The position numbers and the translations under genes are program-made. Under the pieces are notes generated by a model. The model was given only the letters and a program-made list of their open reading frames with translations, did no database searches and had not been told where the DNA came from. From positions 3,534,001 through 3,598,000 of the forward strand of contig CP114179.1 in NCBI GenBank assembly GCA_039555135.1: 64,000 nucleotides of DNA, read 5' to 3'. Shown one piece after another: positions 17,940-32,896 of this stretch (position 1 is its first letter; each line of letters starts with the position of its first letter). Source of the DNA: Phycisphaeraceae bacterium D3-23. Lineage in GTDB: Bacteria > Planctomycetota > Phycisphaerae > Phycisphaerales > Phycisphaeraceae.

Positions 17940-19319
17940 ATGAATATCGTCATCAGTGGCGCGGGGGAAGTCGGCCGACACACCGCGGAGGTGCTTGCGC
18001 CGGCGGGGCACAGCATCACGATCATCGACCAGTCGGCGTCCAAGCTGGCGGAGGTCGACGAGCTGATGGATGTCGGCTCGCTGGTGGGCAACTGTGCCGA
18101 GGCGCAGGTGCAGCTCTTGGCGGGGGTCGACAAGGCCGACCTGTTCGTGGCGGCGACGAACAACGACGAGGTGAACCTGCTGTCGTGCTCGGTCGCCAAG
18201 GGGCTGGGGTGCGTGACGGCGATCTCGCGTGTGCACCACTCGGGCTTCTTCGAGGAACGCGGTCTCAACTACGCCAAGCACCTGGGGATCGACCACCTGG
18301 TGTGCCCGGAATACACGACGGCGCAGGCGATCGCGGCGGCGCTGCGGAGCCCGGGCGCGATCGCGGTCGAGAACTTTGCGCGTGGCAAGGTCGAGATGCA
18401 GCGGCTGGAAGTGAGTCAATCGAGCAAGGCGGTGGGGGTAGCGCTGCGCGAGCTTCGGCCGCCGGGCACGTCGCTGATCGCGTGCGTGACGCGGGGCGGC
18501 GAGGCGTTTATGCCCGCGGCCGACACGGTGCTGGCGGCGGGCGACGAGGTGACGGTGCTGGGCGAGGCCAAGGGGTTTGACCAGACCAGCAAGTACTACA
18601 ACGCCGAGCAAGGCGGGCGGCGCAAGATCATGATCATGGGCGGCTCGACGCAGAGCGTCTGGCTTTGCCGGGAGCTCAAACGGCTGAACCTGTCGGTGCG
18701 GATGCTGATCTCGGACGAGGCGCGGGCCAAGGAGCTCGCGCCCAAGCTCGAGTGGGTCACGACGATCAACGCGGACGTCATCAACTCGGACGTCCTGCAG
18801 GAAGAGCGGGTCGACCTGGCGCATGCGTTTATCTCGGCGACGGACGACGAGGAGACGAACATCCTCGCGGCGGCGCTGGCGAAGACGCGCGGCGCGACCG
18901 TGTCGATGTGCGTCATGCAGCGGCCGACGTACCTGCACCTGATCGAGCACGTGGGCGTGGACCGCGCGTTCAGCCCGCGCGCGACCGCGGTCGCGGAGAT
19001 CCTCCGGCTGCTCGACCACCGCGACCTGCGCCACCTGGGTACGCTGAGTGAGGGCATCGCCGAGCTCTACGAGGTCCACGTGACGGCCAAGGCGTCGCAG
19101 CTGATCGGCAAGCCATTGTCGGAGATCAAGTTCCCCGCCCACTGCCTGGTCGCGGCGATCAGCCGGGGCGAGCGGGTGTACATCCCCGGCGCGGGCGACG
19201 TGATTGAGCAGGGCGATACCGCGGTGCTGATCGGGCCTTCGGAGATCGAGAAGGAGCTGGCCAAGCTGTTCGGGACGAAGCTGAGCAAGCGGGCCCCGGC
19301 GGGGGTGGCGACGGTGTGA
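17940..19319 (+). CDS. trkA: Trk potassium uptake regulator TrkA
   Basis: 459 aa, the usual length of a full bipartite TrkA. It has two RCK_N/RCK_C pairs. The first begins at residue 1 with the nucleotide-binding motif ISGAGEVGRHTAEVL and the acidic ribose-binding residue in IIDQS; its RCK_C lies at about 140-220. The second RCK_N starts at about residue 229 (KIMIMGGSTQSVWLCREL, a degenerate glycine motif) and ends with an RCK_C (LYEVHVTAKASQLIGKPLSE). The protein binds NAD(H)/ATP on the inner face of the TrkH channel and gates K+ uptake. trkH follows on the same strand after 146 bp containing two hairpins. Confidence 0.93.
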   Translation: MNIVISGAGEVGRHTAEVLAPAGHSITIIDQSASKLAEVDELMDVGSLVGNCAEAQVQLLAGVDKADLFVAATNNDEVNLLSCSVAKGLGCVTAISRVHHSGFFEERGLNYAKHLGIDHLVCPEYTTAQAIAAALRSPGAIAVENFARGKVEMQRLEVSQSSKAVGVALRELRPPGTSLIACVTRGGEAFMPAADTVLAAGDEVTVLGEAKGFDQTSKYYNAEQGGRRKIMIMGGSTQSVWLCRELKRLNLSVRMLISDEARAKELAPKLEWVTTINADVINSDVLQEERVDLAHAFISATDDEETNILAAALAKTRGATVSMCVMQRPTYLHLIEHVGVDRAFSPRATAVAEILRLLDHRDLRHLGTLSEGIAELYEVHVTAKASQLIGKPLSEIKFPAHCLVAAISRGERVYIPGAGDVIEQGDTAVLIGPSEIEKELAKLFGTKLSKRAPAGVATV

Positions 19320-19330
19320 TGCGGCGGGAC

Positions 19331-19379
19331 GCCCACGCTCCGCGAGCGTGGGCTTCGGGGCAGTTGTGTGGCACCCGGG
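19331..19379. repeat. Hairpin plus partial family A repeat after trkA
   Basis: GCCCACGCTC-cgc-GAGCGTGGGC is a perfect 10-bp stem ending at 19353. It is followed directly by CAGTTGTGTGGCACCC, which is one end of the family A palindrome found complete at 32994, 37.7 kb, 57.6 kb and 61.1 kb. The GTGGGCTTCGG junction is also seen at the family C copy near 44.2 kb. Confidence 0.6.
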
Positions 19380-19427
19380 CGGGTAGTGCAGTTAGCGACG
19401 GCGATTTGATACAATCTTGGGGTTGAG

Positions 19428-19456
19428 AAGGGCGGTGCATCAGGCACCGCCTTTGT
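19428..19456 (+). terminator. Hairpin with T-rich tail between trkA and trkH
   Basis: AAGGCGGTGC-atca-GGCACCGCCTT followed by TGTTGTTT. The stem is perfect over the GGCGGTGC core. It sits only about 10 bp before the chosen trkH start and about 13 bp after a TACAAT box (19410-19415). It may end trkA transcription or serve as a leader hairpin or attenuator for trkH. Confidence 0.6.
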
Positions 19457-19465
19457 TGTTTCCCG

Positions 19466-21049
19466 ATGGAGCCGGCGTTTGCGTCGGTCGCGATGAACTA
19501 CCGGTTTGTGCTGCGACAACTCGGTCTGCTGCTGGCGGTGATGTCGCTGGCGATGGCGGCGGCGCTGGGATACGAGGCGCTGGCGTTCTTGGCGGGCAAT
19601 GGCGGGCCGGCCGAGGTCCTGGCGTCGCGGTCGCTGGGGATCGCGGTGGTCATCGGCCTGGTGCTGGGCGGCGTGTGCTGGCTGATCGGCAAGGGGGAAA
19701 AAGAGGCGACCCTCGGGCGGCGCGAGGCGCTGCTGCTTGTGGCGACCAGCTGGCTGCTGGGTGCGGCGATCGCGGCGCTTCCCTTCTTCCTCTGGGCACG
19801 CGCCAACGGCGGGGGCCCGGACCACATCTTCCGCTCCTTCTCCGCCTGCTATTTCGAGGCCATGTCCGGGCTCACCACCACCGGCGCGACCATCCTGGGC
19901 AGCGAAAACCAACGCATCGGCGACCTGCCCAAGGGGCTCCTGCTCTGGCGATCGCTCACCCACTGGCTCGGCGGGCTGGGCATCGTGGTCCTCTTCGTTG
20001 CGGTGCTGCCGTCGACCGGCACGGGCAGTAAAAAACTCTTCGCGGTCGAGTCCACCGCCGACCAGGGCGGCGTCCGGCCGCGCGTGCGCGAGACGGCCCG
20101 CGTGCTCTGGCTGATCTACCTCGGGCTCACCGTCGCCTGCATCGCGATGATGCGCGCGACCGGCGCGGTTAACTGGTTCGAGGCCGTCAACCACGCCTTC
20201 TCCGTCATGTCGACCGGCGGGCTGAGCACCCACGACGCGAGCATCGGCGGGTACAACTCGGTCGCGCTGGACCTCGTGACCACGCTCTTTATGTTCCTGG
20301 CGGGCGTGAACTTCGTGCTCTTCTTCCACGCCGCGCAGGGCCGGTGGTCCGTCGCGTGGAAGGATGTCGAGCTACGTGTCTACCTGCTGCTCAAGGTCGT
20401 CGTGTCGGTGATCATCGCGATGAACATCTTTGGGATGAAGATCACGACCACCACGGGCAATGTGGTCGAGGCGACGGTCTTCCAGTCCCTGCGATACGCG
20501 TCGTTCCAGACGATGTCGATGCAGACGGGGACAGGCTTTGGCACGGCCGACTACGACCTCTGGCCCGAGTTGAGTCTGGGGCTCTTGCTCGGGCTGATGC
20601 TCGTCGGCGGCTGCGCGGGGTCCACGGCCGGGGGGCTCAAGGTGATCCGCTTCTGGATCATCATCAAGGTCATGTACCAGGCCCTCGAGCGGGCGTTTCG
20701 GCCCAATGTCGTCCGGCCGCTGAAGGTCGGCAAGAGCGTGATCGACGACGAACTCAAGCTCTCGTCGCTGATCTACCTGGTGCTGCTCTCGCTGCTGACG
20801 GGGCTGGGCTGCTTCGCGGTGCTGCTGATCGAACCCAGCTCGAAGTGCGATTTCCAGACGGCGTTTACCGCGTCGATGTCGACGCTCTGCAACGTCGGCC
20901 CGGGTCAACACGGCGTGGGCCCGACCCAGAACTACGGCTGGATGCACCCCGCGTCGATGTGGGTGCTCAGCTTGCTGATGGCGCTGGGCCGGCTCGAGGT
21001 CTTCGCGCTGTTGGTGCTGCTCGCGCCTCGGTTCTGGCGGGGCGACTAG
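19466..21049 (+). CDS. trkH: Trk potassium uptake channel TrkH
   Basis: 527 aa integral membrane protein with ten or more hydrophobic segments. All four pore-loop signatures of the SKT superfamily are visible: GLTTTGATILG, MSTGGLSTHD, MQTGTGFGTADY and STLCNVGPG. There is also a GGCAGSTAGGLKVIR segment typical of TrkH/KtrB. It forms the K+-conducting pore and pairs with the TrkA ring encoded upstream. No clear ribosome binding site precedes the ATG at 19466; an in-frame ATG at 19493 (MNYRFVLRQLG) would give a more usual N-terminus. The C-terminus (GRLEVFALLVLLAPRFWRGD) is typical, so the gene is complete. Confidence 0.93.
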   Translation: MEPAFASVAMNYRFVLRQLGLLLAVMSLAMAAALGYEALAFLAGNGGPAEVLASRSLGIAVVIGLVLGGVCWLIGKGEKEATLGRREALLLVATSWLLGAAIAALPFFLWARANGGGPDHIFRSFSACYFEAMSGLTTTGATILGSENQRIGDLPKGLLLWRSLTHWLGGLGIVVLFVAVLPSTGTGSKKLFAVESTADQGGVRPRVRETARVLWLIYLGLTVACIAMMRATGAVNWFEAVNHAFSVMSTGGLSTHDASIGGYNSVALDLVTTLFMFLAGVNFVLFFHAAQGRWSVAWKDVELRVYLLLKVVVSVIIAMNIFGMKITTTTGNVVEATVFQSLRYASFQTMSMQTGTGFGTADYDLWPELSLGLLLGLMLVGGCAGSTAGGLKVIRFWIIIKVMYQALERAFRPNVVRPLKVGKSVIDDELKLSSLIYLVLLSLLTGLGCFAVLLIEPSSKCDFQTAFTASMSTLCNVGPGQHGVGPTQNYGWMHPASMWVLSLLMALGRLEVFALLVLLAPRFWRGD

Positions 21050-21100
21050 GCCTATTCTGGGCCGATTGTAGGATTTATCGCTTTTTTTCGGACGATTGCC

Positions 21101-21129
21101 TTGCCCGGCTACTGGATATCCCCTATCCT
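21101..21129 (+). promoter_or_regulatory. Sigma-70-like promoter candidate for the lysyl oxidase gene
   Basis: TTGCCC and TATCCT separated by 17 bp, about 90 bp before the start codon at 21220. The following leader ends in a GGAG ribosome binding site. Confidence 0.4.
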
Positions 21130-21219
21130 TGCAGCATCATGGGGAAGCGGGCGGCTTATTGTGAGCTGCGCTCTTATTTTGTTCGTTGTACCCTTCCTTA
21201 TCCCTGGAGTGGCTGATCT

Positions 21220-22590
21220 ATGTCTAAGTCGTTGTCTCAGAAGAAACTAGCCGGCCTCGCGCTCGGCACCGGCGTCCTGCTTTCGGGCCTGATGGCGGGT
21301 GAAGCCCAGGCCCAGTTCGAGGGGTTCCTGCTCCCGGACATGATGCCCTGGATCTCGGACCAGAATAACTACAGCCACGGCTGGCGCCTCAACTTCTCCG
21401 AGACCGAGTTCAGCGCGACGACCACGCCGCTCAACACCGGCCCGGGCCACCTCGAGATGCACGACGACCTGGACCAGGACGGCACAGGCGGCAACGACAT
21501 CGACATCTACCAGCGGCTCTACCGCGAAGATGGCACGCACGAGGACTTCCTCGCCGGCAACTTCATCAACCACCCCAACCACGGCCACTTCCACTTCGAG
21601 GGCTACGCCCAGATGTCGCTCCGCGAAGTCACCGCGGGCAACGGCATCGGCGATGTCGTGGCGCTGGGTGAGAAGACCAGCTTCTGCATGATCGACCTCG
21701 ACAGCTTCGGCGGGACGTCCAACTACTTCGGCTGCGGTCGGGGCACCCAGGGCATCTCCTCGATGTACGCCGACGTCTATAGCTCGGGCCTCGACGGCCA
21801 GCAGATCGACGTCTCCGGGCTCGAACGCTCGGGCGGCAACTTCACCGGCGGGCTCAACGGCACCGGCGTCTACTGGTTCGAGATCTCCATCGACCCCGAC
21901 AACCGGATGATCGAGTCCGACAACAACAACAACGTCGCCCACCTGCTCATCGACCTCAACGGCCAAGAAGGTGCCGTACTCGACGACCACTCCAACTCCA
22001 AGGTCAACGCCACCGTCCTCAACAGCGGCGACTACCGCTTCGGCGAGATCGGCCAGGACGGCGACGAAGACATGTTCCGCATGCAGGTCGTCGAAGGCGC
22101 GCTCTATCGCACCTCCATGGTCGAGCTCCAGATGCACCGCGGCGACTTCACCGTCCACGACACCAACGGCAACGAGGTCTTCTACGAAGACATGAGCGCT
22201 GTCGGGCAGGACTTTGCCCAGTACGAGTTCCGCGCCAACGGCACGGGCGAGTACGATATGGAAGTCGGCGAAAACCACAGCAACTTCGGCAACCGTGACG
22301 GCAGCTACATGGTCCACTTCGAGCTGATCCGCATCGCCGGCGACGCCAACGGCGACGACATCGTCAACGCCGCCGACCTCGACATGCTCCTCGCCACCTG
22401 GGGCCAGACCGTCGCCGCGAACACCGCGGGCGATGTCAACGGCGACGGCACGGTCGACGGCGCCGACCAGGCGCTCATCGAAGCCAACTTCGGCTCGACC
22501 CTCGCCGACTACGCCACCAGCGTCCCCGAGCCCGGCTCGCTCGCGCTGCTCGGCCTCGGCGGCATCGCGCTGCTCCGACGCCGACGCTAA
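21220..22590 (+). CDS. Lysyl oxidase family protein with dockerin repeats and PEP-CTERM tail
   Basis: 456 aa with a GGAG site upstream. The signal peptide is about residues 1-32 (LALGTGVLLSGLMAGEAQAQ). Residues about 45-250 match the copper amine oxidase family of lysyl oxidases. The copper-site histidine cluster HPNHGHFHFEGY holds His118, His121, His123 and His125. Then come EKTSFCMIDLD with Lys152 and MYADVYSSGLDGQQIDVS with Tyr183 and Tyr187. By motif alignment Lys152 and Tyr187 match the pair that forms the lysyl-tyrosylquinone cofactor in animal enzymes. DNRMIESDNNNN matches the PESDYTNN segment. The rest has a beta domain, two dockerin-like loops (DANGDDIVNAADLDMLLATW and another) and a PEP-CTERM tail. 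It may oxidise lysine in surface proteins. Confidence 0.85.
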   Translation: MSKSLSQKKLAGLALGTGVLLSGLMAGEAQAQFEGFLLPDMMPWISDQNNYSHGWRLNFSETEFSATTTPLNTGPGHLEMHDDLDQDGTGGNDIDIYQRLYREDGTHEDFLAGNFINHPNHGHFHFEGYAQMSLREVTAGNGIGDVVALGEKTSFCMIDLDSFGGTSNYFGCGRGTQGISSMYADVYSSGLDGQQIDVSGLERSGGNFTGGLNGTGVYWFEISIDPDNRMIESDNNNNVAHLLIDLNGQEGAVLDDHSNSKVNATVLNSGDYRFGEIGQDGDEDMFRMQVVEGALYRTSMVELQMHRGDFTVHDTNGNEVFYEDMSAVGQDFAQYEFRANGTGEYDMEVGENHSNFGNRDGSYMVHFELIRIAGDANGDDIVNAADLDMLLATWGQTVAANTAGDVNGDGTVDGADQALIEANFGSTLADYATSVPEPGSLALLGLGGIALLRRRR

Positions 22591-22668
22591 GGGCCGACTC
22601 CCAGACGACCCCACGCCGACGCTGAGTCCGCGAACCGTCTGGTACTCGACACCCCACATCCAAAAGAC

Positions 22669-22698
22669 AAGGCCGGCCCCACCGCCGGCCTTGTTTTT
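22669..22698 (+). terminator. Rho-independent terminator
   Basis: AAGGCCGGC-cccacc-GCCGGCCTT followed by GTTTTT, about 80 bp after the lysyl oxidase family gene. Confidence 0.85.
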
Positions 22699-22790
22699 GC
22701 GCGCCTTGTTTCACCGCGGGTGCGGCCCCCACGTTTGACCCCGCACCCATATCCCCGACAATACTATCGACCCACCGATTTGGTTAGACT

Positions 22791-22827
22791 CCCAACCTAG
22801 GCCCTAGGCCCTAACTCCTGGCTACTA
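22791..22827 (+). repeat. Family D repeat, copy 3
   Basis: The segment with CCTAGGCCCTAGGCCCTAA matches the two arms at 17756-17930 over about 37 bp. It ends 5 bp before the nuoI start codon, replacing any recognisable ribosome binding site. Confidence 0.65.
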
Positions 22828-22831
22828 CAGC

Positions 22832-23386
22832 ATGATCCCCGACACCGACACCCTCAACGTCGACCTCCCCCCGCTCAACGCGGCCGAGGCGTTCTACCTG
22901 CCCGAGGTGTTCAAGGGGCTGGGCACGACGCTCAAGCACATGGCCGGCAGCATCGGCAAGTTCGCCGGCGGCGGGCGTCGGCTCAAGACACTGGAGTACC
23001 CCGAAGAGCGCCGCGAAGACTTCCCCGTCGAGGAGGGAGGCCAGTACATCCCCAACTTCCGCGGCGTGCATCGGCTCAACCGCGATGAGGACGGCCGGGT
23101 CCGCTGCGTCGCCTGCTTCATGTGCGCGACCGCCTGCCCCGCCAACTGCATCCACATCACGGGCGCCGAGTCGCCCTGGGACGACCGCGAGAAGTACCCC
23201 ATCAAGTTCGACCTCGACGAGCTGCGCTGCATCTACTGCGGCATGTGTGAGGAGGCCTGCCCGGTCGACGCGATCGAGCTGACCCAGCTCTACGACGTCG
23301 TCGGGATGTCCCGCCAGGAGATGATCTTCGACAAGGAGAAGCTCCTGAGCATCTACGACGCGACCATCGATAAAAAACCGATGTAG
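22832..23386 (+). CDS. nuoI: NADH-quinone oxidoreductase subunit I (NuoI), orphan
   Basis: 184 aa with the two canonical 4Fe-4S ferredoxin motifs: CVACFMCATACPANC (near residues 91-105) and CIYCGMCEEACPVDA (near 132-146). The N-terminal LPEVFKGLGTTLKHMAGSIG and the segment EYPEERREDFPVEEGGQYIP are typical of NuoI, which carries clusters N6a and N6b in the peripheral arm of complex I. No other nuo gene lies in the window. The preceding gene is a lysyl oxidase homologue and the next is a lipocalin-like repeat protein. Complex I genes normally sit in one operon, so this is either a dispersed subunit or an extra copy. No ribosome binding site is evident. Confidence 0.92.
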   Translation: MIPDTDTLNVDLPPLNAAEAFYLPEVFKGLGTTLKHMAGSIGKFAGGGRRLKTLEYPEERREDFPVEEGGQYIPNFRGVHRLNRDEDGRVRCVACFMCATACPANCIHITGAESPWDDREKYPIKFDLDELRCIYCGMCEEACPVDAIELTQLYDVVGMSRQEMIFDKEKLLSIYDATIDKKPM

Positions 23387-23533: not shown

Positions 23534-25693
23534 ATGCCACGCATACGCTTGTCACTATTCGCGCTGGTCGCGCTGCTCTGTACTGCGCCGCTCTATGCCC
23601 AGGCCGACGACCCGATCGTCGGCACGTGGACAGGCATCGAGATGGACGGCGAAGAAATGCCCGAGGGCGAGTTCAACATCACCTTCAACGCCGACGGTAC
23701 GGGCGAGTTCATCGAGCGCGACGGTGATGCCGACCCGTTCCGGTACGCGCACGACCCCGAGGTGAAGAAGATCTGCACGGTCTACATGGAGGGTGAAGAC
23801 CCGTTCGATTTCGAAGTCGCGTTCGACGGCGACACGATGACGTTCACGCCGCTGGACGACGAAGGCCCGCCGCCGCTGAAGCTGCGCCGCGTCGAGGGCG
23901 GCGAAGACACCTGGGAAGACATGCCCGCCGACGATCTGGCCGACAACCCGATGGTCGGCGTATGGGCGGGCGTGACGATGGGCGGTGAAGAGATCCCCGA
24001 AGGCGCATTCACGCTGACGGTCAACGCGGACGGCACGGGCGATGTCCGTGAGGGTGCCGACGACCAGACCCCCGAGCCCTACACCTACACCTACGACGCC
24101 GACACGGGCGTGTTTGTCGTCACCCCCGAGGTCGGCGACCCGTTCACGTTCACGATGACGTTTGATGGCGACCTCGCCACGATGTCTGCCGGCGACGAGG
24201 GCGGCCCGCCGCCGATCGTGCTGCGGCGCATCCGGGAGGGGGGCGGTGGCGACGGCGCGATGCCCGAGCTGGCAGACATGAGCGACTCGCCGCTGGTCGG
24301 CCGATGGACGCTGGTGTCGTTCAACGGCGAAGCGATGCCCGATGATACGGTCTACGTCTTTGAAAACCACGCCGACGGCACCGGCACCTCCACGATCAAC
24401 GGCGAGCCCGGCGACCCCTACACCTGGCAGCACGACTTCGAGACCGGCGTCGCGACGTTCACGCACCCCGACCAGGAGCCCGCGGCGTTTACCTTCGAGA
24501 TCGAGGACGGCGTCGCGACCTATGTCTCCACGGACGGGACGATGACCATCATTGAGCGACGCCTCGGCGACGATGAGCAGCCCAACGGCGTACCCGAGCC
24601 CGAGCCCGAGCCGGTCGACATGAGCGACTCGCCGCTCGTCGGGCTCTGGATGCTCATCAAGTTCAACGACCAGGACGTGCCCGAGGACCTCGTCGTCTAC
24701 GAGCACCGGCCCGACGGCACGGGCACCGTCATCGAAGAGGGCGTGCGCGGCGACGAGTTCCGCTGGAACCACGATGTCGAGAACGCCACGATCGTTGTCG
24801 ACGACGCCGAGGGCCAGCGCTTCGAGTTCACGCTCGTGATGCAGGACGACCTGGTGTTCTATGTCTCGACGGACGAGTCGATGCGGATCGTCCACCGCCG
24901 CGCGGGGGACCTCGCCGCGGCCGGCGACGAGATCGTCGGCACGTGGGCGGGCATCAAGATGGGCAACCAGGACCTCGAGCCCGGCGAGTTCGGGCTGACC
25001 TTCCACGCCGACGGCACGGGCGAGCTCAACGACGGCGACGAGGAGAACGAGCCCTTCACCTACGCCTACAACTCCGCGACCAAGCTCTACACGCTCCAGG
25101 TCGAGGAGGAAGAGTCGATCGCCTTCGCCGCGGCGTTCGATGATGAGGAGCTGACGATCACCCCCGTCGATGAGAACGGCCCGCCGCCGCTCGTGCTGCG
25201 TCGCGTCGTCGATGCGGACGACAACGACGATGAAAACGCGATGGACGCGGACGGCGTCACCGGCACGTGGTACGCGCAGAAGATGACCGACGAGGGCTGG
25301 ATCGACCCCAAGGACGAGTTCCGGCTTGAGTTCCGCGACGACGGCACGGTCCACGCCTTTGAGAATGGCGAGGTCCAGGATGAGGGGCTGAGTTACACCG
25401 TCGATGAAGACCGCAGCGTGATCGTGCTGTCGATCCCCGGCGAAGGCGAGATGATGGACCTGCACTACGAGCAGTTCGACGACGTCATGATCCTGACCTT
25501 CTCGCCGCCCGGCGGGTTCAACGAAGGCGAGATGGAGATCATCCTCTGCCGCCGGCCCGAGGGCACCGAAGCACACCAGCGCGAGCGCGCACGCGAAGGT
25601 GCCGGCGAGGACGGCGGCGTCGATGGCGTCGGCGCGGCGGTGGAAGACGCCGCCGAGGCCGTGGAAGAGGCGGTGGAGGGGGCCCGCGAGTAA
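23534..25693 (+). CDS. Secreted protein with six tandem lipocalin-like VGTW repeats
   Basis: 719 aa. The ATG at 23534 has a strong AAGGAGG site 8 nt upstream; the frame is open to 23468 but that part is not needed. The signal peptide is residues 1-24 (LSLFALVALLCTAPLYAQA). The mature protein is six consecutive modules of about 100 aa, each starting with V-G-x-W (near residues 29, 141, 255, 369, 468 and 575). Each continues with a short beta-rich region, A-D-G-T-G, a (P)-x-x-Y-x-Y/W-x-x-D segment and usually ending G-P-P-P-x-x-L-R-R. The layout is that of lipocalin-like domains. The modules are very acidic, joined by Asp/Glu linkers. The sixth module (GTWYAQKMTDEGW) is closer to the next gene's module than to its own siblings. 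Ligand and role unknown. Confidence 0.82.
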   Translation: MPRIRLSLFALVALLCTAPLYAQADDPIVGTWTGIEMDGEEMPEGEFNITFNADGTGEFIERDGDADPFRYAHDPEVKKICTVYMEGEDPFDFEVAFDGDTMTFTPLDDEGPPPLKLRRVEGGEDTWEDMPADDLADNPMVGVWAGVTMGGEEIPEGAFTLTVNADGTGDVREGADDQTPEPYTYTYDADTGVFVVTPEVGDPFTFTMTFDGDLATMSAGDEGGPPPIVLRRIREGGGGDGAMPELADMSDSPLVGRWTLVSFNGEAMPDDTVYVFENHADGTGTSTINGEPGDPYTWQHDFETGVATFTHPDQEPAAFTFEIEDGVATYVSTDGTMTIIERRLGDDEQPNGVPEPEPEPVDMSDSPLVGLWMLIKFNDQDVPEDLVVYEHRPDGTGTVIEEGVRGDEFRWNHDVENATIVVDDAEGQRFEFTLVMQDDLVFYVSTDESMRIVHRRAGDLAAAGDEIVGTWAGIKMGNQDLEPGEFGLTFHADGTGELNDGDEENEPFTYAYNSATKLYTLQVEEEESIAFAAAFDDEELTITPVDENGPPPLVLRRVVDADDNDDENAMDADGVTGTWYAQKMTDEGWIDPKDEFRLEFRDDGTVHAFENGEVQDEGLSYTVDEDRSVIVLSIPGEGEMMDLHYEQFDDVMILTFSPPGGFNEGEMEIILCRRPEGTEAHQRERAREGAGEDGGVDGVGAAVEDAAEAVEEAVEGARE

Positions 25694-25771
25694 CTGATAC
25701 CCCCGTGGGGCCGACAGGCATGTCTGCCCCGCGTCGATTTTTGTCACACAACCCCCTTCCGGAGACTCAAG

Positions 25772-26941
25772 ATGCACCGCCTCAACCTTTGTGCCTGGCC
25801 CACCATCGCCGCGGCAGTCTTTGTCGCATGCCCGCTTTCCGCGCAGCCCGCGCAAGAGGTCGAGCCCGCCGAGGCCGTAACGCCCGCCGACGAACAGCGC
25901 GAGGGGGTGGTCGGTACCTGGTACGCGCAGAAGCTGCAGGGCGAGTGGGTCGCGGCCGAGGCGGAGTTTCGCCTGGAGTTCCGCGACGATGGCACGGCAC
26001 ACTTCTTCGAGAACGGCCGTGCCGAGGAAGAGGGCGTGGCTTACGTGATCGATGCCGAGCGCAGCATGATCACGATTTCCGAACCCGAGATGCAGATGGT
26101 GATCGAGTTCGAGTTCATCCAGTTCGACGACGTCATGATCCTGACGATGCTGCCGATCGAAGGCATGGAGCAGGCGTTCGCGGGGCAGGATATGGACATC
26201 GTCCTGTCGCGCCGGCCCGAGGGCAACGAAGACCACCAACGCGAGCGCGCAGCGCTGGTAGAGGGCACCGGCCGCGGGGCAATGGGGGGCAACGGCCCGC
26301 CGATGGAAGAAGACATCACGCCCGAAGAGCTGGCGTTGTGGAACCTCGAAGACCTCGCGATGTATGCATACGAATGGCGGTTCGAGGAAGGCACCTTCCC
26401 TGCTCGGCTCAGCGAGTTGCTTGCCTACGATCTGGATGCGGCGTGCTTCCTGCAGCCCGGTCAATCGGACGTGCTGCCCGAGAATTTCGGCGAGCTGTCC
26501 GAGGCGGATCGCGCCGCATGGATCGATGCTCACACCGGCTACGGCTACATCGGCTCGGACGCGGCGACGCTGGCGGACAAGAAGGAGCAGTGGGACATGG
26601 TGCTCATTTTCGAGCTCCCGCTGTACGAAGGCGCCGAGTCGGTCAATGTCGTTTACGTCGAGGGCAGCACCCGGACACTGGAGTACGACGAGGCCGATGC
26701 GTTGATCGCGGCGCAGACCGGACGCGACCTGATGGCGTGGATGGAGCACATGGGCCGTGAGCAGCTGCCGCCGCGCGAAACGGCAGAGGACGCGGCGGAG
26801 CGTGCGGGCGATTCCGCAGACGAGGCGGGCGGCCACGACCACGACGAGGGTGATGCCGCACCGATGCGGGACGGCGGTCATTTTCACGCGGACGGCACCT
26901 ACCACGACAACGACCATGACCATGACGAAGCGCACGAGTGA
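25772..26941 (+). CDS. Secreted lipocalin-like protein with ELPLY-type module and His-rich tail
   Basis: 389 aa; GGAG site 9 nt before the ATG; signal peptide with Ala-rich end (VFVACPLSAQPAQ). Residues about 48-150 are one lipocalin-like module (VVGTWYAQKLQGEWVAAEAE, RDDGTAHFFENG, FDDVMILT), nearly the twin of module six in the previous gene, including a shared RRPEGxExHQRERA ending. A second domain of about 160 aa follows, with HTGYGYIGSD, FELPLYEGAESVNVVYVEGS and EADALIAAQTGRDLMAWMEH. This second domain recurs in the next gene. The last 40 residues are His/Asp-rich (GGHDHDEGD, HFHADGTYHDNDHDHDEAHE) and look able to bind metal ions. It starts 78 bp after the preceding stop. Function unknown. 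Confidence 0.78.
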   Translation: MHRLNLCAWPTIAAAVFVACPLSAQPAQEVEPAEAVTPADEQREGVVGTWYAQKLQGEWVAAEAEFRLEFRDDGTAHFFENGRAEEEGVAYVIDAERSMITISEPEMQMVIEFEFIQFDDVMILTMLPIEGMEQAFAGQDMDIVLSRRPEGNEDHQRERAALVEGTGRGAMGGNGPPMEEDITPEELALWNLEDLAMYAYEWRFEEGTFPARLSELLAYDLDAACFLQPGQSDVLPENFGELSEADRAAWIDAHTGYGYIGSDAATLADKKEQWDMVLIFELPLYEGAESVNVVYVEGSTRTLEYDEADALIAAQTGRDLMAWMEHMGREQLPPRETAEDAAERAGDSADEAGGHDHDEGDAAPMRDGGHFHADGTYHDNDHDHDEAHE

Positions 26942-27015
26942 ATTGTTGCGGGCGAATGAGGGGTGGCGTGACGATGCGTATGCTTGCTGCTACTTGAGAC
27001 AAGACGGGGCTGGCG

Positions 27016-29034
27016 ATGATTGGGATTGATCGCGCGTTCGTGACTCGGCAATCTGTACGCTGCTTTTTACGGCTGATGCTGATCGTTGTCGCGTTTGGCG
27101 TGTCGCCGTGCGCGTCTGCGCAGCCGGTGGGGGCCGTGCCGACGGTCGATGAGCTGGTCGGCGTGTGGTACGTCCAGGCCTGGGCGGGCGCGTATCTCAA
27201 CGAGGACGAGACCTACCTGCTCTGCATCGCGGCGGGTGACCGCGGCGAGCTCGTTGTTGGCTATGGCACGGACCCGGAGGAAGGCGCGATCGTCGCCGTG
27301 AATGCCCCGTGGGACGCCGAGGCGGGCGTCTTTACGATGCAGCACGACGTGGCGGGCTTCGGCGCGGTCGGTGCGGTCCATGTGGCCTGCCGGCTGCGCG
27401 AGGGTGTGTTGTTTCTCGCGGCCGAGTACGAAGACGACGCGAGCACGCCGGGCGAATGCCGGCTGACGCGCGCGCCGCTCGACAACGGCTCGACGCGTCG
27501 CGGCCGACAAGCATCCAACGCGACGATGGGCGACCTTCGCAGTGCGGCGTATCACGCGCGGTACCTGTACGAGTCGGCGCTGCTGTACGCGCTGGACCAT
27601 GACGACACGGTGCCGACGGGCCTGGGCGTGATGCTTCATGAACAGGACGAGGAAGACCAGGCGGAACGGGCCCGCGAACGGCGTCGCCCCGGCGGGCTGG
27701 GCGGCGGCTTGGGCGGTCGCGGCGGCGGGCTGGGGGGGCGGCCATTGGGCGCGCCTGAAGAAGAAGCCGGGCCGTTGGAGGTCGAGCGGCCCGATGCGTA
27801 CGACGCGGCGACGGCGCACTGGCTGATGCGCAAGCGGCCGCGCGGGTTTCGGACTTGGGGTGTCGAGCGCCGGATCGAGTGGGTGGATGAGAACGCGGAT
27901 TTTGTGCTGCTGATCGCGGGCCAGGCGTTAGGGGAGGACTACCCTCGGCTGCGGGGCGATGACCCGGTGCAGCGCCGCCGAACCCGCAGCCGCAGCCGAG
28001 ACGTGCCGGGCGGTCGCGGGCTGGGTCGGCCCGGTGGTCGGCCGGCCCCGGGCGGTCTGAACCTGCCCCCGGAGCGCGGGCCCGGCGGGCATCTGCCCCA
28101 GGATCGTGAGCAGGAAGAGCGCGAGGCCGAGGAAAGGGCCCGGCGTCTTGAGGCGCGGCAGGCGGCGTGGGCCCAGCGGGTTGTGCTGTTCGAGCTGCCG
28201 CGGACGCGTCGCCAGCGGACAGTGTCGCTGTGCTTCGGGGACGGCCGGGTCGCTCGGGTGCCTTTGCGTGAGGCCGATGCGCTGCTGCGTGAGCAGACGG
28301 GGACGGACCTGGCCGGCTGGATGGATCACCTGGAGCGTGAAGTCGTGCCGGATAGCGCGCTGGAGCCGAGGCCGGCGACGGACGCAGCAGAACCGGCGCA
28401 GCCCGATCGGCCCGATCGGCCCGGCCGCGTGGGTGGCGTGCCGGTGCCGCGCGAGCATCCGCCGCACGTGGTCGATGTTGACCACCCGGCCAACGGCGAC
28501 GGGCGCGCCGCGCAGGCGCAGCGCGCCTACTCGCAGTTGCGGCTGGAGCGTCTGATCGGGAACCTGCCGCACTACCTCCAGGACAACAAGGACCGACCGC
28601 CGAATACGCTTGGCGAACTGACGACGTATCTCTCGGGCCCGATGGACCCGCCGCTGTGTTTCTTGCCGTGGCAGACGCCCGGCGACGAGCAGCAGTGGGA
28701 CGATGTGGATGACGCGGACCGCCCCGCGTGGGTCGATGAGCGCACGGGCTACGGCTACGTCGGCGCGGCGCGGATCACGGATGTGCTGGACCGCCCGCAG
28801 GACTTCACCGGGCGCGAGGTCGCGTTTTTTGAGCTGCCGCTCTATGCCGGGGTTGAGACGGTCGGCCTCGGGATGCTGGGTGGGCGGACGACGCGGCTGG
28901 CGTATGATGAGGCGGATGCGCTGCTGCTTGAGCAGACGGGGCTCGCCTTGATGGACTGGATGGATGTGTACGGGTACGAACAACAGCCTGCCCAAGCGGC
29001 TGGGCCAACACAACAGGAAGACAACGATGATTAG
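27016..29034 (+). CDS. Secreted paralogue with VGVW module and two ELPLY-type modules
   Basis: 672 aa. Signal peptide at about residues 20-36 (LMLIVVAFGVSPCASAQ). Residues about 45-155 form a divergent lipocalin-like module (LVGVWYVQAWAGAYLNEDET). Two copies of the module seen in the previous gene follow. One ends VVLFELPRTRRQRTVSLCFG...ADALLREQTGTDLAGWMDHL. The second has RPPNTLGELTTYLSG, ERTGYGYVGA and FFELPLYAGVETVGLG...ADALLLEQTGLALMDWMD. Between them are low-complexity Arg/Gly/Pro stretches. The pattern of a G-x-G/DG turn after a short strand and a following helix recalls the C-terminal half of planctomycete pseudopilins, but no N-terminal pilin helix is present. It overlaps the next gene by 8 bp (ATGATTAG), implying translational coupling. 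Confidence 0.75.
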   Translation: MIGIDRAFVTRQSVRCFLRLMLIVVAFGVSPCASAQPVGAVPTVDELVGVWYVQAWAGAYLNEDETYLLCIAAGDRGELVVGYGTDPEEGAIVAVNAPWDAEAGVFTMQHDVAGFGAVGAVHVACRLREGVLFLAAEYEDDASTPGECRLTRAPLDNGSTRRGRQASNATMGDLRSAAYHARYLYESALLYALDHDDTVPTGLGVMLHEQDEEDQAERARERRRPGGLGGGLGGRGGGLGGRPLGAPEEEAGPLEVERPDAYDAATAHWLMRKRPRGFRTWGVERRIEWVDENADFVLLIAGQALGEDYPRLRGDDPVQRRRTRSRSRDVPGGRGLGRPGGRPAPGGLNLPPERGPGGHLPQDREQEEREAEERARRLEARQAAWAQRVVLFELPRTRRQRTVSLCFGDGRVARVPLREADALLREQTGTDLAGWMDHLEREVVPDSALEPRPATDAAEPAQPDRPDRPGRVGGVPVPREHPPHVVDVDHPANGDGRAAQAQRAYSQLRLERLIGNLPHYLQDNKDRPPNTLGELTTYLSGPMDPPLCFLPWQTPGDEQQWDDVDDADRPAWVDERTGYGYVGAARITDVLDRPQDFTGREVAFFELPLYAGVETVGLGMLGGRTTRLAYDEADALLLEQTGLALMDWMDVYGYEQQPAQAAGPTQQEDNDD

Positions 29035-29515
29035 CTTGCGATGGATGGTGTTGCTGGTAGCGATGGGCCTGGTTGTGGGCTGCGGCGAGACGGACACGCC
29101 GACGCAGGATGCGGACACAACGGATGCGGACGGTTCGGGCGATGCGCGCGACGGTGGCGACGGCGATGTGGGTGCCGCCGACGATGGCGGCGCCGACGAC
29201 GCGCCGGACCTCGGCAGCGTTTTGGTCGGCACATGGGACGCGGTGGAGGACCAGAACGGCGCGTTGCGTTCCGGCATGCTGGTGTTCACCTACCACGCGG
29301 ACGGCACGGGCACTGTCGTCGAGGAGGGCGGCCCGCCAAAGACCTATCGGTGGACCTACGACGCGGATGCGGGCACGCTGCATGTCGAGACGGAGAACGA
29401 GGACCTGCTGTTCGACGCGACGTTCGCGGGCGGACGGCTGACACTGGTGATGGAGATGGAGGGCGGTGACGCGATGCGGCTGGTGATGGAGCGGATGGAT
29501 GCGGCCGGTGAGTAG
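29027..29515 (+). CDS. Lipocalin-like lipoprotein, single VGTW module
   Basis: 162 aa. The ATG at 29027 overlaps the upstream stop and has an AGGAAG site 7 nt before it. MISLRWMVLLVAMGLVVGCG is a lipoprotein signal with Cys19 as the likely anchor. An Asp/Gly-rich linker (DADTTDADGSGDARDGGDGD) leads to one lipocalin-like module (VLVGTWDAVEDQNG, YHADGTGTVVEEGG, YRWTYDADAGTLHVE, LVMERMDA). This is most like modules three and four of the gene at 23534. It is part of the same five-gene run and overlaps the next gene by 17 bp. Confidence 0.75.
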   Translation: MISLRWMVLLVAMGLVVGCGETDTPTQDADTTDADGSGDARDGGDGDVGAADDGGADDAPDLGSVLVGTWDAVEDQNGALRSGMLVFTYHADGTGTVVEEGGPPKTYRWTYDADAGTLHVETENEDLLFDATFAGGRLTLVMEMEGGDAMRLVMERMDAAGE

Positions 29516-29870
29516 TTTTCTCTTGCGCGTTGGGCTCATGCTGTTGCTGGTGTCGCTCTTGGGCTGTGGCCAGTCGCCGCAGGCGGAGCTCACAGGCGTA
29601 TGGTCGGTCACGCAGCGCTTTGGCCAGCCGATGCCAGAGGGCGTGACGGAGATGCGGACGTTCCACAAGGACGGCACTTTGACGATCGCGCGCTCCGACA
29701 TGGACGAGCCCCACACGGTCGGCTGGTCGGTCGTCGGCGAGTGGACGATCCGCATCGACCCCGGCGACGATTCGGACGCGCCGGCCAACGACTACACCTA
29801 CCGCGTCGACGGCGAGACGCTGACGATCGCGGGCGAGCAGGGGGATACGGTGCTGGTGCGGGTGGACTAG
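29499..29870 (+). CDS. Small lipoprotein ending the VGTW cluster
   Basis: 123 aa. The ATG at 29499 lies inside the end of the preceding gene; a GTG at 29508 is an alternative. The signal LRVGLMLLLVSLLGCGQ has a good lipobox (LLGC). The mature part keeps the module outline: LTGVWSVTQRFGQPMPEGVT, FHKDGTLTIARS, then a beta-rich end (YTYRVDGETLTIAGEQGDTV). The G-E-W-T and D-G-E-T-L-T-I pattern is that of lipocalin-like lipoproteins. It is the most divergent member of the run. A long family B palindrome begins 15 bp after the stop and probably marks the operon end. Confidence 0.72.
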   Translation: MRPVSSFLLRVGLMLLLVSLLGCGQSPQAELTGVWSVTQRFGQPMPEGVTEMRTFHKDGTLTIARSDMDEPHTVGWSVVGEWTIRIDPGDDSDAPANDYTYRVDGETLTIAGEQGDTVLVRVD

Positions 29871-30013: not shown

Positions 30014-32068
30014 ATGCCCCTGCTCCGATTTGTCGCGCTGCTGATGCTGGCCTTCTTCCTGCTCGGCGTCGGCGGCTGCGCTTCGACGTCCGGGGTGGGC
30101 GCGAACGATCCCGACCTACCACCGGCTGGCCGCTACGACGTCGTCGTCTACGGCGGGACGTCGGCGGGCGTTATCGCGGCGGTGCAGGCCAAGCGCGACG
30201 GGCTGAGCGTCGTGATCGTTGGGCCCGATGTCCACCTGGGCGGCTTGTCGTCGGGTGGGCTAGGCGCAACCGATAGCGGGGACAAGTCGGTCATCGGCGG
30301 ATTGTCGCTGGACTTCTACGAACGCCTGGGCGCACACTACGGCCGCGATGACGCGGCGTGGACGTTCGAGCCGCATGTCGCGGAGCAGGTGTTTGAACAG
30401 TACGTCGCCGAGCACGATATCCCGGTGTTCCGCGACCGCTGGCTTGACCGCGAAGGCGGTGTCGCGATGGACGGCCAGCGCATCGTGTCGGTGACGATGC
30501 TCGACGGCTCGACGTTCCACGGCAGCGTTTTTATCGACGCGACCTACGAGGGGGACCTGATGGCCGCGGCCGGCGTGAGCTACACCGTCGGCCGCGAGCC
30601 GAACGACACGTACGGCGAGACACTCAACGGCGTCGCGATCCACGAAGATCGGTATCACCAGTTCGCCGCGCCGGTGGACCCGTATGTCGTGCCGGGCGAC
30701 CCGTCGAGTGGCTTGTTGCCCGGTGTGAGCGCGGACCCGCCGGGGACCGACGGGCAGGGCGACCGCCGGATTCAGGCATACTGTTTCCGCATGTGCCTGA
30801 CGCAGGTCGCGGAGAACCGCGTGCCGTTCCCCATGCCCGCCGGCTACGACCCGGCACGTTACGAGCTGCTCTTGCGAACGGTTCTGGCCGGCGCGAACCG
30901 CCACGGCGCGGGCTTCTTTTCGACGCACCCGATGCCGAACGGCAAGACCGACTCGAACAACGCCGGGCCTTTTTCGACCGACCACATCGGCGCGAACTAC
31001 GAGTACCCCGAGGCGGGTTACGCCCGGCGCGCCGAGATCATCGAAGACCACCGGCGCTACCAGCAGGGGCTGATGTACTTCCTCTCCAACGACGCGCGTG
31101 TCCCGGCCGAGCTGCGCGAGACGGTGGGGCGGTGGGGGCTGTGCAAGGACGAGTTTGTCGACAGCGGCCACTGGCCCCACCAGCTCTACATCCGCGAGGC
31201 CCGGCGGATGGTCGGCGACTTCGTCGTCACCGAGGGCCACGTGCGGCGCGACATGGAGACGCCCCGGCCGATCGGGATGGGGTCGTACAACATGGACTCG
31301 CACCACGTGCAGCGGTACGTCACCGCCGAGGGCCATGTGCGCAACGAGGGCGATGTGCAGGTCTCGCCCGGCGGGGCGTACCCGATCGACTACGGCGCGA
31401 TCGTCCCGAAGCGCGGGGAGTGTGAGAACCTGCTGGTGCCGGTGTGCGTGAGCGCGTCGCACATCGCGTTTGGCTCGATCCGGATGGAGCCGGTGTTCAT
31501 GGTGCTGGGCCAGTCCGCGGCGCAGGCGGCGAAGATTGCGATCGCGGAGGGCGTCGCGGTGCAGGATGTGGACGCCGCGCGGCTTGAAGCGGCGATGCTT
31601 GAGGCCGGGCAGGTGCTGCGTGCGCCGTCGCGGGGGCTGGACCCCAAGACGCTGGCGGGTGTAGTCGTGGATGATGAGGATGCCCGGTTTGTCGGTGAAT
31701 GGACGCATAGCCAGTCGACCCCGGGTTTCGTCCACAACGGCTACCGGCACGATGGCGATGCGCGTGACGGCGAAGCGTCAGCGCGATTCCATACAAACGC
31801 ACTCTCGCCGGGTAGGTACGAGGTGCGACTGGCGTATACGCCCAATGCAAACCGGTCGCGCACGACGCGCGTGACGGTGCATCATGGCGGGGGCGAGTCG
31901 GTGGTGACGGTCGATCAGCGTGCCGCGCCGCCGATCGACGGTGCGTTTGTGTCGCTTGGGGTGTTTGCGTTCGAGGACGGCACGCCCGCGACGGTGGTCG
32001 TCACGAACGCAGGCGCGGACGGCTACGTCATCGCCGACGCGGTGCAGTGGCTGCCGGCGGGGCGTTAG
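30014..32068 (+). CDS. FAD-dependent oxidoreductase lipoprotein with C-terminal carbohydrate-binding-like domain
   Basis: 684 aa. The ATG at 30014 opens a lipoprotein signal (LRFVALLMLAFFLLGVGGCA); the longer open frame upstream overlaps the repeat and the previous gene. Residues about 41-65 form a Rossmann FAD motif (YDVVVYGGTSAGVIAAVQAK) followed by GGLSSGGLGATD, as in the FAD_oxidored family found in planctomycetes and often annotated with xanthan lyase or glycan metabolism. The FAD-binding end motif is near residues 485-510. Residues about 555-684 form a beta domain (FVGEWTHSQSTPGFVHNGYR, RYEVRLAYTPNANR, VIADAVQWLPAGR) that matches the golvesin/xanthan-lyase-type C-terminal domain. Probably extracytoplasmic sugar oxidation; substrate unknown. 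Confidence 0.82.
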   Translation: MPLLRFVALLMLAFFLLGVGGCASTSGVGANDPDLPPAGRYDVVVYGGTSAGVIAAVQAKRDGLSVVIVGPDVHLGGLSSGGLGATDSGDKSVIGGLSLDFYERLGAHYGRDDAAWTFEPHVAEQVFEQYVAEHDIPVFRDRWLDREGGVAMDGQRIVSVTMLDGSTFHGSVFIDATYEGDLMAAAGVSYTVGREPNDTYGETLNGVAIHEDRYHQFAAPVDPYVVPGDPSSGLLPGVSADPPGTDGQGDRRIQAYCFRMCLTQVAENRVPFPMPAGYDPARYELLLRTVLAGANRHGAGFFSTHPMPNGKTDSNNAGPFSTDHIGANYEYPEAGYARRAEIIEDHRRYQQGLMYFLSNDARVPAELRETVGRWGLCKDEFVDSGHWPHQLYIREARRMVGDFVVTEGHVRRDMETPRPIGMGSYNMDSHHVQRYVTAEGHVRNEGDVQVSPGGAYPIDYGAIVPKRGECENLLVPVCVSASHIAFGSIRMEPVFMVLGQSAAQAAKIAIAEGVAVQDVDAARLEAAMLEAGQVLRAPSRGLDPKTLAGVVVDDEDARFVGEWTHSQSTPGFVHNGYRHDGDARDGEASARFHTNALSPGRYEVRLAYTPNANRSRTTRVTVHHGGGESVVTVDQRAAPPIDGAFVSLGVFAFEDGTPATVVVTNAGADGYVIADAVQWLPAGR

Positions 32069-32087
32069 GCCTTGACTGAAAAAGTGC

Positions 32088-32176
32088 GGCGGGCGTCTCG
32101 CCCGCCATCACGGCGCAGCCGTGACACCATGAGCTTCGGGCTGCGCCCGAACGGCGGGTGAGACGCCCGCCCCACC
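32088..32176. repeat. Long palindrome, family E copy 1
   Basis: Arms with GGCGGGCGTCTCGCCCGCC and its partner ending GGGTGAGACGCCCGCC surround an inner hairpin (CACGGCGCAGCCGTG). A related element is at 44071-44165. The remaining stretch up to 32551 holds no gene I can support; it contains only the leader of the next gene. Confidence 0.65.
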
Positions 32177-32551
32177 GAAGACGCAGCTTGTATACGTTCT
32201 CATAATGTCAAATCTGGGTGGCGCGTTTTCTGAGATCACGGTCGTATGACACCGCATCGACGACATATGCGGTGCGCGGTGTTTTTCTACGGGCGTTTCG
32301 TGCATCGCCGGCTTCAGCGGGCGATTCCGATCTCCGATCGGTTGTCGGGGCGGGGCGGGTCCGAGAAGGCCCGGCCGCGTCCTAGAATCCCCCGCGCCGC
32401 GTGTTGCTGTGCGGGGGGCGGGCCCGGTAAGCGGCCGTCGGCGGTTTTCGTTTTGGGAATCGCGGCGCGGCATAAGATGAGGTCGGCTTCGCAGCCCGTC
32501 TCGTTTCACGCCGGCTCCGGCAAACCTCTTTTCCTCTTTTGGAGTCTTCTC

Positions 32552-32896
32552 ATGCAGATGAACATCCGAACCCTCAACCTTGACGCCAGCCCCGCGCTGG
32601 ACGACCACGCCACCGAGCGGCTTGAAGCGGCGCTTGCGCACTTCGCCGGCCGGGTCGGCGCGGTCGATGTCCGGCTTGAAGATATCCACGGCCACCGCCA
32701 CGGCCAGGAGATGCGTTGCACGCTGCGGGTCCACCTCGAAGGCGCGGGGGTCGTGATGATCGAGCAGGTCGACCCCGACATCTACCACGCGATCGACACC
32801 GCGGCGCACCGGCTCAAGCGCGTCGTCCGCCGAAAGATTAATCGGTCGCGCACATTCAGCCATCAACGCCACACCGACCAGCGCCGCGCGGCCTAG
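32552..32896 (+). CDS. HPF/RaiA-family ribosome-associated protein
   Basis: 114 aa from the ATG at 32552, which follows GGAG at 7-8 nt; the frame is open much further upstream but that part has no protein character. MNIRTLNLDASPALDDHATE and LAHFAGRVGAVDVRLEDIHG match the opening beta-alpha-beta unit of hibernation-promoting factors. VDPDIYHAIDTAAHRLKRVV matches the second helix and precedes a basic C-terminus (KRVVRRKINRSRTFSHQRH). It is the short form without the dimerising C-terminal domain. Expected role: binding the 30S subunit to stabilise idle ribosomes, though the basic tail and weak identity leave room for a divergent function. A bidirectional terminator follows. Confidence 0.75.
   Translation: MQMNIRTLNLDASPALDDHATERLEAALAHFAGRVGAVDVRLEDIHGHRHGQEMRCTLRVHLEGAGVVMIEQVDPDIYHAIDTAAHRLKRVVRRKINRSRTFSHQRHTDQRRAA

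Follow-up and report, generated by a model that had tools for sequence, protein, structure and literature searches.

Lipocalin-like barrels of the DUF5640 (PF18692) and Lipocalin_4 (PF13648) type, the potempins, the modular type IV pilins and a group of DUF3352-like proteins of Phycisphaerae are the known proteins with which the locus reported here can be compared. Potempins are small lipoproteins described as inhibiting a co-encoded protease (PMC7296668), and modular type IV pilins, in which a functional module is grafted onto a pilin, are widespread (PMC8179133). The present locus appears to pair two parts of known kinds, a lipocalin-like barrel and a pilin-like domain devoid of its hydrophobic stem, and three genomes, all belonging to a single genus, show this putative pairing. 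Literature on the combination of the two was not found in the partial library that was searched, which is weak evidence, and none was found for DUF5640, for H-X9-DG with planctomycete, or for tandem bacterial lipocalins.

The host genome, that of a planctomycete, is a single contig of 4.62 Mb, and within the window (the whole 64,000-nucleotide stretch of DNA that was analysed) the cluster consists of five consecutive ORFs that fill positions 23534-29870, all on the plus strand. Gene 1 (23534-25693) encodes a signal peptide followed by six tandem lipocalin-like modules and has no pilin-like tail, gene 2 (25772-26941) encodes a signal peptide, one module, a pilin-like tail and a His/Asp-rich end, and gene 3 (27016-29034), absent from the nearest relative, encodes a signal peptide, an unsupported module remnant and two pilin-like domains. 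Genes 4 (29027-29515) and 5 (29499-29870) encode lipoproteins with one module each (29210-29506 and 29580-29867, respectively), and both have an orthologue in the nearest relative. The start of gene 4 most likely lies at 29027 rather than 28964, because the lipobox VVGC is then placed at residues 16-19. Genes 1 and 2 are separated by 78 bp and genes 2 and 3 by 74 bp, and with the start of gene 4 taken as 29027 genes 3 and 4 overlap by 8 bp and genes 4 and 5 by 17 bp, as the first-pass annotation had noticed when it described the last three genes as overlapping or nearly so. Its further statement that every product carries a signal peptide or a lipobox agrees with the single N-terminal hydrophobic segment detected in each of the five proteins, but a lipobox was found in genes 4 (VVGC) and 5 (LLGC) only, the N-termini of genes 1-3 resembling ordinary signal peptides.

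Regarding coding potential, GC3 is 0.81-0.90 in the cluster genes and differences between the window and the nearest relative are commonest at codon position 3 (0.32, 0.29 and 0.42 at positions 1, 2 and 3 of gene 1), which together argue that the plus-strand genes are truly coding. An antisense ORF of 1,126 aa (23555-26935) was dismissed as a by-product of high GC, the codon pattern residing in the plus-strand genes. Promoter and terminator scans gave no more matches than expected by chance, inverted repeats yielded nothing notable, and a plasmid search was negative.

The six tandem modules of gene 1 are 96-106 residues long and lie at 23606-23902, 23942-24241, 24284-24574, 24626-24913, 24923-25216 and 25247-25564 (modules 1 to 6); single copies are present in gene 2 (25898-26224), gene 4 and gene 5. 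Two independent Pfam models matched gene 1 above their cut-offs and far beyond chance (DUF5640, 1.3e-21; Lipocalin_4, 8.3e-10), which upholds the six copies first read from the letters, and both likewise matched the four-module protein of the nearest relative above cut-off. Genes 2, 4 and 5 taken alone scored 17-21 bits with DUF5640, under its cut-off of 28.5 bits, and are assigned to the module family because of the shared module alignment. In that alignment of 15 modules from the window and the nearest relative, the copies have in common an early G-x-W and a central D-G, and nearly all of them an Arg close to the end (G6 and W8 are invariant, R95 nearly so), a pattern known from lipocalins. 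E-values of these modules against the module profile are circular, since the profile was built from them, except for gene 3, in which no significant module match was found (best at aa 45-112, positions 27148-27351, with E 0.17 for 10,000 sequences and 10 bits; 3.4 bits with a profile of the gene-2 type), so that this segment is a possible degenerate remnant. The proposal of a five-gene cluster built from one module held for genes 1, 4 and 5 and failed for genes 2 and 3, much of which is a pilin-like domain that the first-pass annotation had overlooked; gene 2 does carry one module. Matches to Pfam FlgD_ig and DAP_B and to NCBIfam FlgD and CglD were partial and under cut-off and were rejected.

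The module is predicted to be a small lipocalin-like barrel of the DUF5640/Lipocalin_4 type. Modelled with the module alignment, module 1 gave eight strands (pLDDT 90.6) arranged as an antiparallel barrel that opens with GxW and has a basic residue in its final strand, and the strands of the module tend towards an alternation of hydrophobic and polar residues. The solved structure nearest to this model is potempin E of Tannerella forsythia (8ehc/8ehd; Z 13.1 over 88 residues, 2.2 A), followed by several Bacteroides lipocalin-like proteins at Z about 11. The gene-2 module, modelled separately, was again predicted to be a barrel (pLDDT 77-89) with potempin E as first match. The two separately modelled modules thus have the same kind of barrel and the same best match, as anticipated if the modules share one fold, and the Pfam matches, the eight-stranded model and the structural matches agree in making that fold lipocalin-like, the type of fold originally suggested for it. 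A sequence search of solved structures with gene 1 gave no matches; with the module profile the best matches were Rhs/Tre-type toxins over the repeat-like DGTG strands, a likeness judged to reflect similar strand-turn-strand repeats, while retinol-binding proteins were matched marginally (E 0.05-0.1), the barrels being in register at their start. Compared with other DUF5640/Lipocalin_4 proteins, which have the same small barrel, the present family differs in having six tandem copies in one protein and, in gene 2, a pilin-like tail joined to the module. Related modules also occur in other settings: two in a DUF5640-type protein outside the cluster in the host genome (L005, C1:3048089-3048661), two after pre-peptidase-like repeats in another such protein of the nearest relative (L125, G002 C20), and others at the C-terminus of a Ser/Thr kinase-like protein (L107, genome G419) and inside a tricorn-like protease (L109, genome G044).

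Genes 2 and 3 share a second, C-terminal domain, present in one copy in gene 2 (26333-26764, aa 188-331) and two in gene 3, which resembles by sequence the head of type IV prepilins. The second copy in gene 3 (28531-28995, aa 506-660) is continuous, and the first (27544-28341) is split by two Gly/Arg-rich insertions into three collinear pieces (27544-27645, 27808-27930 and 28162-28341; aa 177-210, 265-305 and 383-442), of which only the last is significant alone (1e-15). The tail profile that placed these copies itself contains gene 2, the second copy of gene 3 and the nearest relative. A Gly/Arg-rich tandem repeat lies within the inserted sequence at 27683-27751. A search of the host genome with PF07963 gave 71 prepilin-type N-terminal motifs above cut-off, many of them in proteins of 250-350 aa with a C-terminal DGH/DGS motif, and 30 prepilin-type proteins of the host genome were aligned and compared, profile against profile, with the tail family. 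The full tail family matched the prepilin profile with 99.2% probability (pair E 1.4e-19, 50 columns), and a tail profile begun at the start of the gene 2 tail still did so over 29 columns (96.8%). After the helix, the DGHV strand of the tail aligns with the DGH strand that prepilins have close to their C-terminus, and this part scored 29.7 against 19.3 for the best of 60 column-shuffled controls. A prepilin HMM matched the tail of the nearest relative (E 1.3e-4 for 10,000 sequences; 0 of 1,900 shuffled decoys matched) and gave no direct match to the gene 2 tail of the window, so that the link runs via the tail family; the gene 2 model is poor in the tail region (pLDDT 37-82), so that the pilin-type head is a candidate fold for it.

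The cluster proteins lack the features that define pilins: neither a class III leader or prepilin peptidase site nor a hydrophobic alpha-1 stem was detected in any of them, the N-terminal signal being their only hydrophobic stretch. The same tail ends other proteins of this planctomycete family, many of them of about 750 aa with a DUF3352-like N-terminal part (weak Pfam match), in which lipocalin-like modules were not seen. Most of these DUF3352-like proteins keep a stem remnant (LLPALGAAR), the tail often being preceded by an LLPALGAARxxAR-like segment that is nearly identical to the end of the hydrophobic helix of host-genome prepilins. A leaderless, stem-less pilin-like domain ending several unrelated exported proteins would represent a testable reuse of pilin parts outside filaments. 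The last part of the tail, VFADGHVETLTQREAARLIEQQTG, also ends a sigma-factor-like protein of about 413 aa in the host genome (L169, C1:302114-302263).

Among the relatives found, the MAG 'Phycisphaerae bacterium isolate 4_bin.8' (JAUHZU010000001.1; G002), hereafter the sister, is the nearest; it was the only match of an alignment-based contig scan, a contig scan across genomes with gene 2 having given no match. Between the same neighbours the sister encodes a protein of 690 aa in which four modules are joined to the tail, followed by orthologues of genes 4 and 5, and lacks gene 3. Another member of the genus (G001, completeness 100) has a 306-aa lipoprotein between the ferredoxin-like and hibernation-factor genes; profiles built without its sequence recognise one module (E 8.9e-5) as well as the tail (E 1.6e-15) in this protein, which has 23% identity to gene 2 over 312 aligned columns. 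This lipoprotein was missed by the genome-wide searches and found by synteny only, so that counts such as 5 of 392 genomes should be read as minima; the sample of the genus comprised five genomes, two of which are under 90% complete. Neither module nor tail was found within at most about 10 kb downstream of the ferredoxin-like gene in 34 further genomes of the family, several of which have short contigs there. Absence of the cluster from related genomes would have counted against the original proposal, but reduced forms of it occur in these two.

A module tree is consistent with the view that the cluster grew by repeated duplication, as had been suggested. In it, module 1, gene 4 and gene 5 each pair one-to-one with their sister counterparts, modules 3 and 4 group together (100/98), module 5 is of the module 1/2 type, and module 6 and the gene-2 module form a pair (81/74) that has sister module 4 as its neighbour (100/100). 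The first-pass annotation had taken the likeness of the last pair as a sign of recent module exchange between genes 1 and 2. The two are indeed alike, with 55% identity and an RRPEGxExHQRERA ending in both, but sister module 4 is equally close (56% to module 6 and 49% to gene 2) and has the RRPEGxExHQR ending in common with them, so that a recent exchange is not supported. The better reading is that the terminal unit was duplicated at about the time when the lineages of the window and G002 separated, which explains the likeness and makes recent exchange unnecessary; gene 1 then ends without a tail and gene 2 retains it. The three genomes form a possible stepwise series of one (G001), four (G002) and six plus one modules (window), and may thereby preserve a record of how a tandem-barrel cluster grew and split. 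Its direction, with one module first, is an inference, and the series could include loss, for example in G001.

Taken jointly, these observations are best explained, in our tentative judgement and at somewhat less than an even chance, by an expanding genus-level family that arose from a founding lipoprotein of barrel plus tail and that combines binding barrels with a docking domain. The family probably began as one lipoprotein that had a single lipocalin-like barrel followed by a pilin-like domain lacking prepilin leader and stem; the barrels and the terminal unit would then have been duplicated, and the tail lost from gene 1, to give the present genes in an order that we infer. Signal peptides and lipoboxes suggest that the proteins are located in the periplasm or on the outer membrane, where the barrels would bind something in the envelope, several per chain perhaps giving avidity, and where the pilin-like domain, presumably unable to polymerise, would act in docking or packing. 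Barrels that bind in the envelope, joined to a pilin-like domain for docking, are thus our best guess, docking and ligand binding both being guesses from architecture. The His/Asp-rich end of gene 2 (26828-26938), read in translation, and that of the sister protein (SAEGHGDHDHD) could bind divalent metals.

Modular pilins offer a parallel, in that a functional module is combined there with a pilin-type module. Here the pilin-like part comes last, without class III leader and without hydrophobic stem, and with the order reversed and the parts for polymerisation missing the cluster proteins fall outside the modular pilin class; they may still work like its members, through docking. A more specific form of this idea, a reversed modular pilin with barrels first and a stem-less pilin head last that uses a type IV pilus or pseudopilus as its docking site and either decorates the filament or is exported with it, is improbable as it stands. 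Partners for the pilin-like domain would be plentiful, given some 70 prepilin-type proteins in the host genome, and, if the idea is true, docking would become a general device in these planctomycetes, since DUF3352-like proteins have the same tail.

Other functions were weighed against binding barrels with a docking domain. The proteins could be mainly structural or adhesive, with arrays of acidic barrels serving as spacers or matrix parts without a specific small ligand; this is unlikely but the alternative to be taken most seriously, given the strong acidity of the gene 1 product (pI 4.05, 23.5% Asp+Glu), the differing repeat number between close relatives and the fast divergence from the sister (gene 1 is 53% identical, the flanking ferredoxin-like protein 92%). 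Acidic proteins are, however, common in the genome region around the cluster, and the single-module genes 4 and 5 remain one-to-one with the sister (71% identity for gene 5), and this points to a defined task. A rather doubtful reading is that of an envelope system serving a small hydrophobic ligand, haem or metal, in which the pilin-like domain would be incidental. The lipocalin-like fold, the marginal retinol-binding protein likeness and the His/Asp-rich ends of gene 2 and the sister protein are in its favour, but the reading is based on fold, the His-rich end is missing from genes 1, 4 and 5, and the scanned neighbours include, apart from a TrkA/TrkH potassium pair, no recognised gene for haem, transport or metal uptake. 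The least probable of the readings considered makes the modules potempin-like peptidase inhibitors that block secreted proteases, gene 1 being a six-headed one. Potempin E is the nearest solved structure for both modelled modules and, like potempins, genes 4 and 5 encode small exported lipoproteins; the module inside a tricorn-like protease of another planctomycete also fits. Against this, a shared fold is not a shared function, several lipocalin-like proteins score nearly as high, the identity to potempin E is 17%, the modules here form tandem arrays, and no co-encoded peptidase was recognised among the scanned neighbours, unlike in the pot-KLIKK pairs.

The family scan of the neighbours covered 17940-23386 and 30017-32896 and recognised TrkA, TrkH, a lysyl oxidase-like PEP-CTERM protein, a ferredoxin-like protein, an FAD oxidoreductase and a hibernation factor; no peptidase family was recognised in these intervals, and the scanned neighbours give no lead to the function of the cluster. 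The lysyl oxidase-like protein (21220-22590) has dockerin and PEP-CTERM matches and is conserved in G002. The FAD-dependent oxidoreductase (30017-32068) has a golvesin-type C-terminal domain and is matched in every one of the five genus members sampled; its gene adjoins the cluster in the window and in G002, and in G001 and G003 it lies on a different contig from the ferredoxin-like gene.
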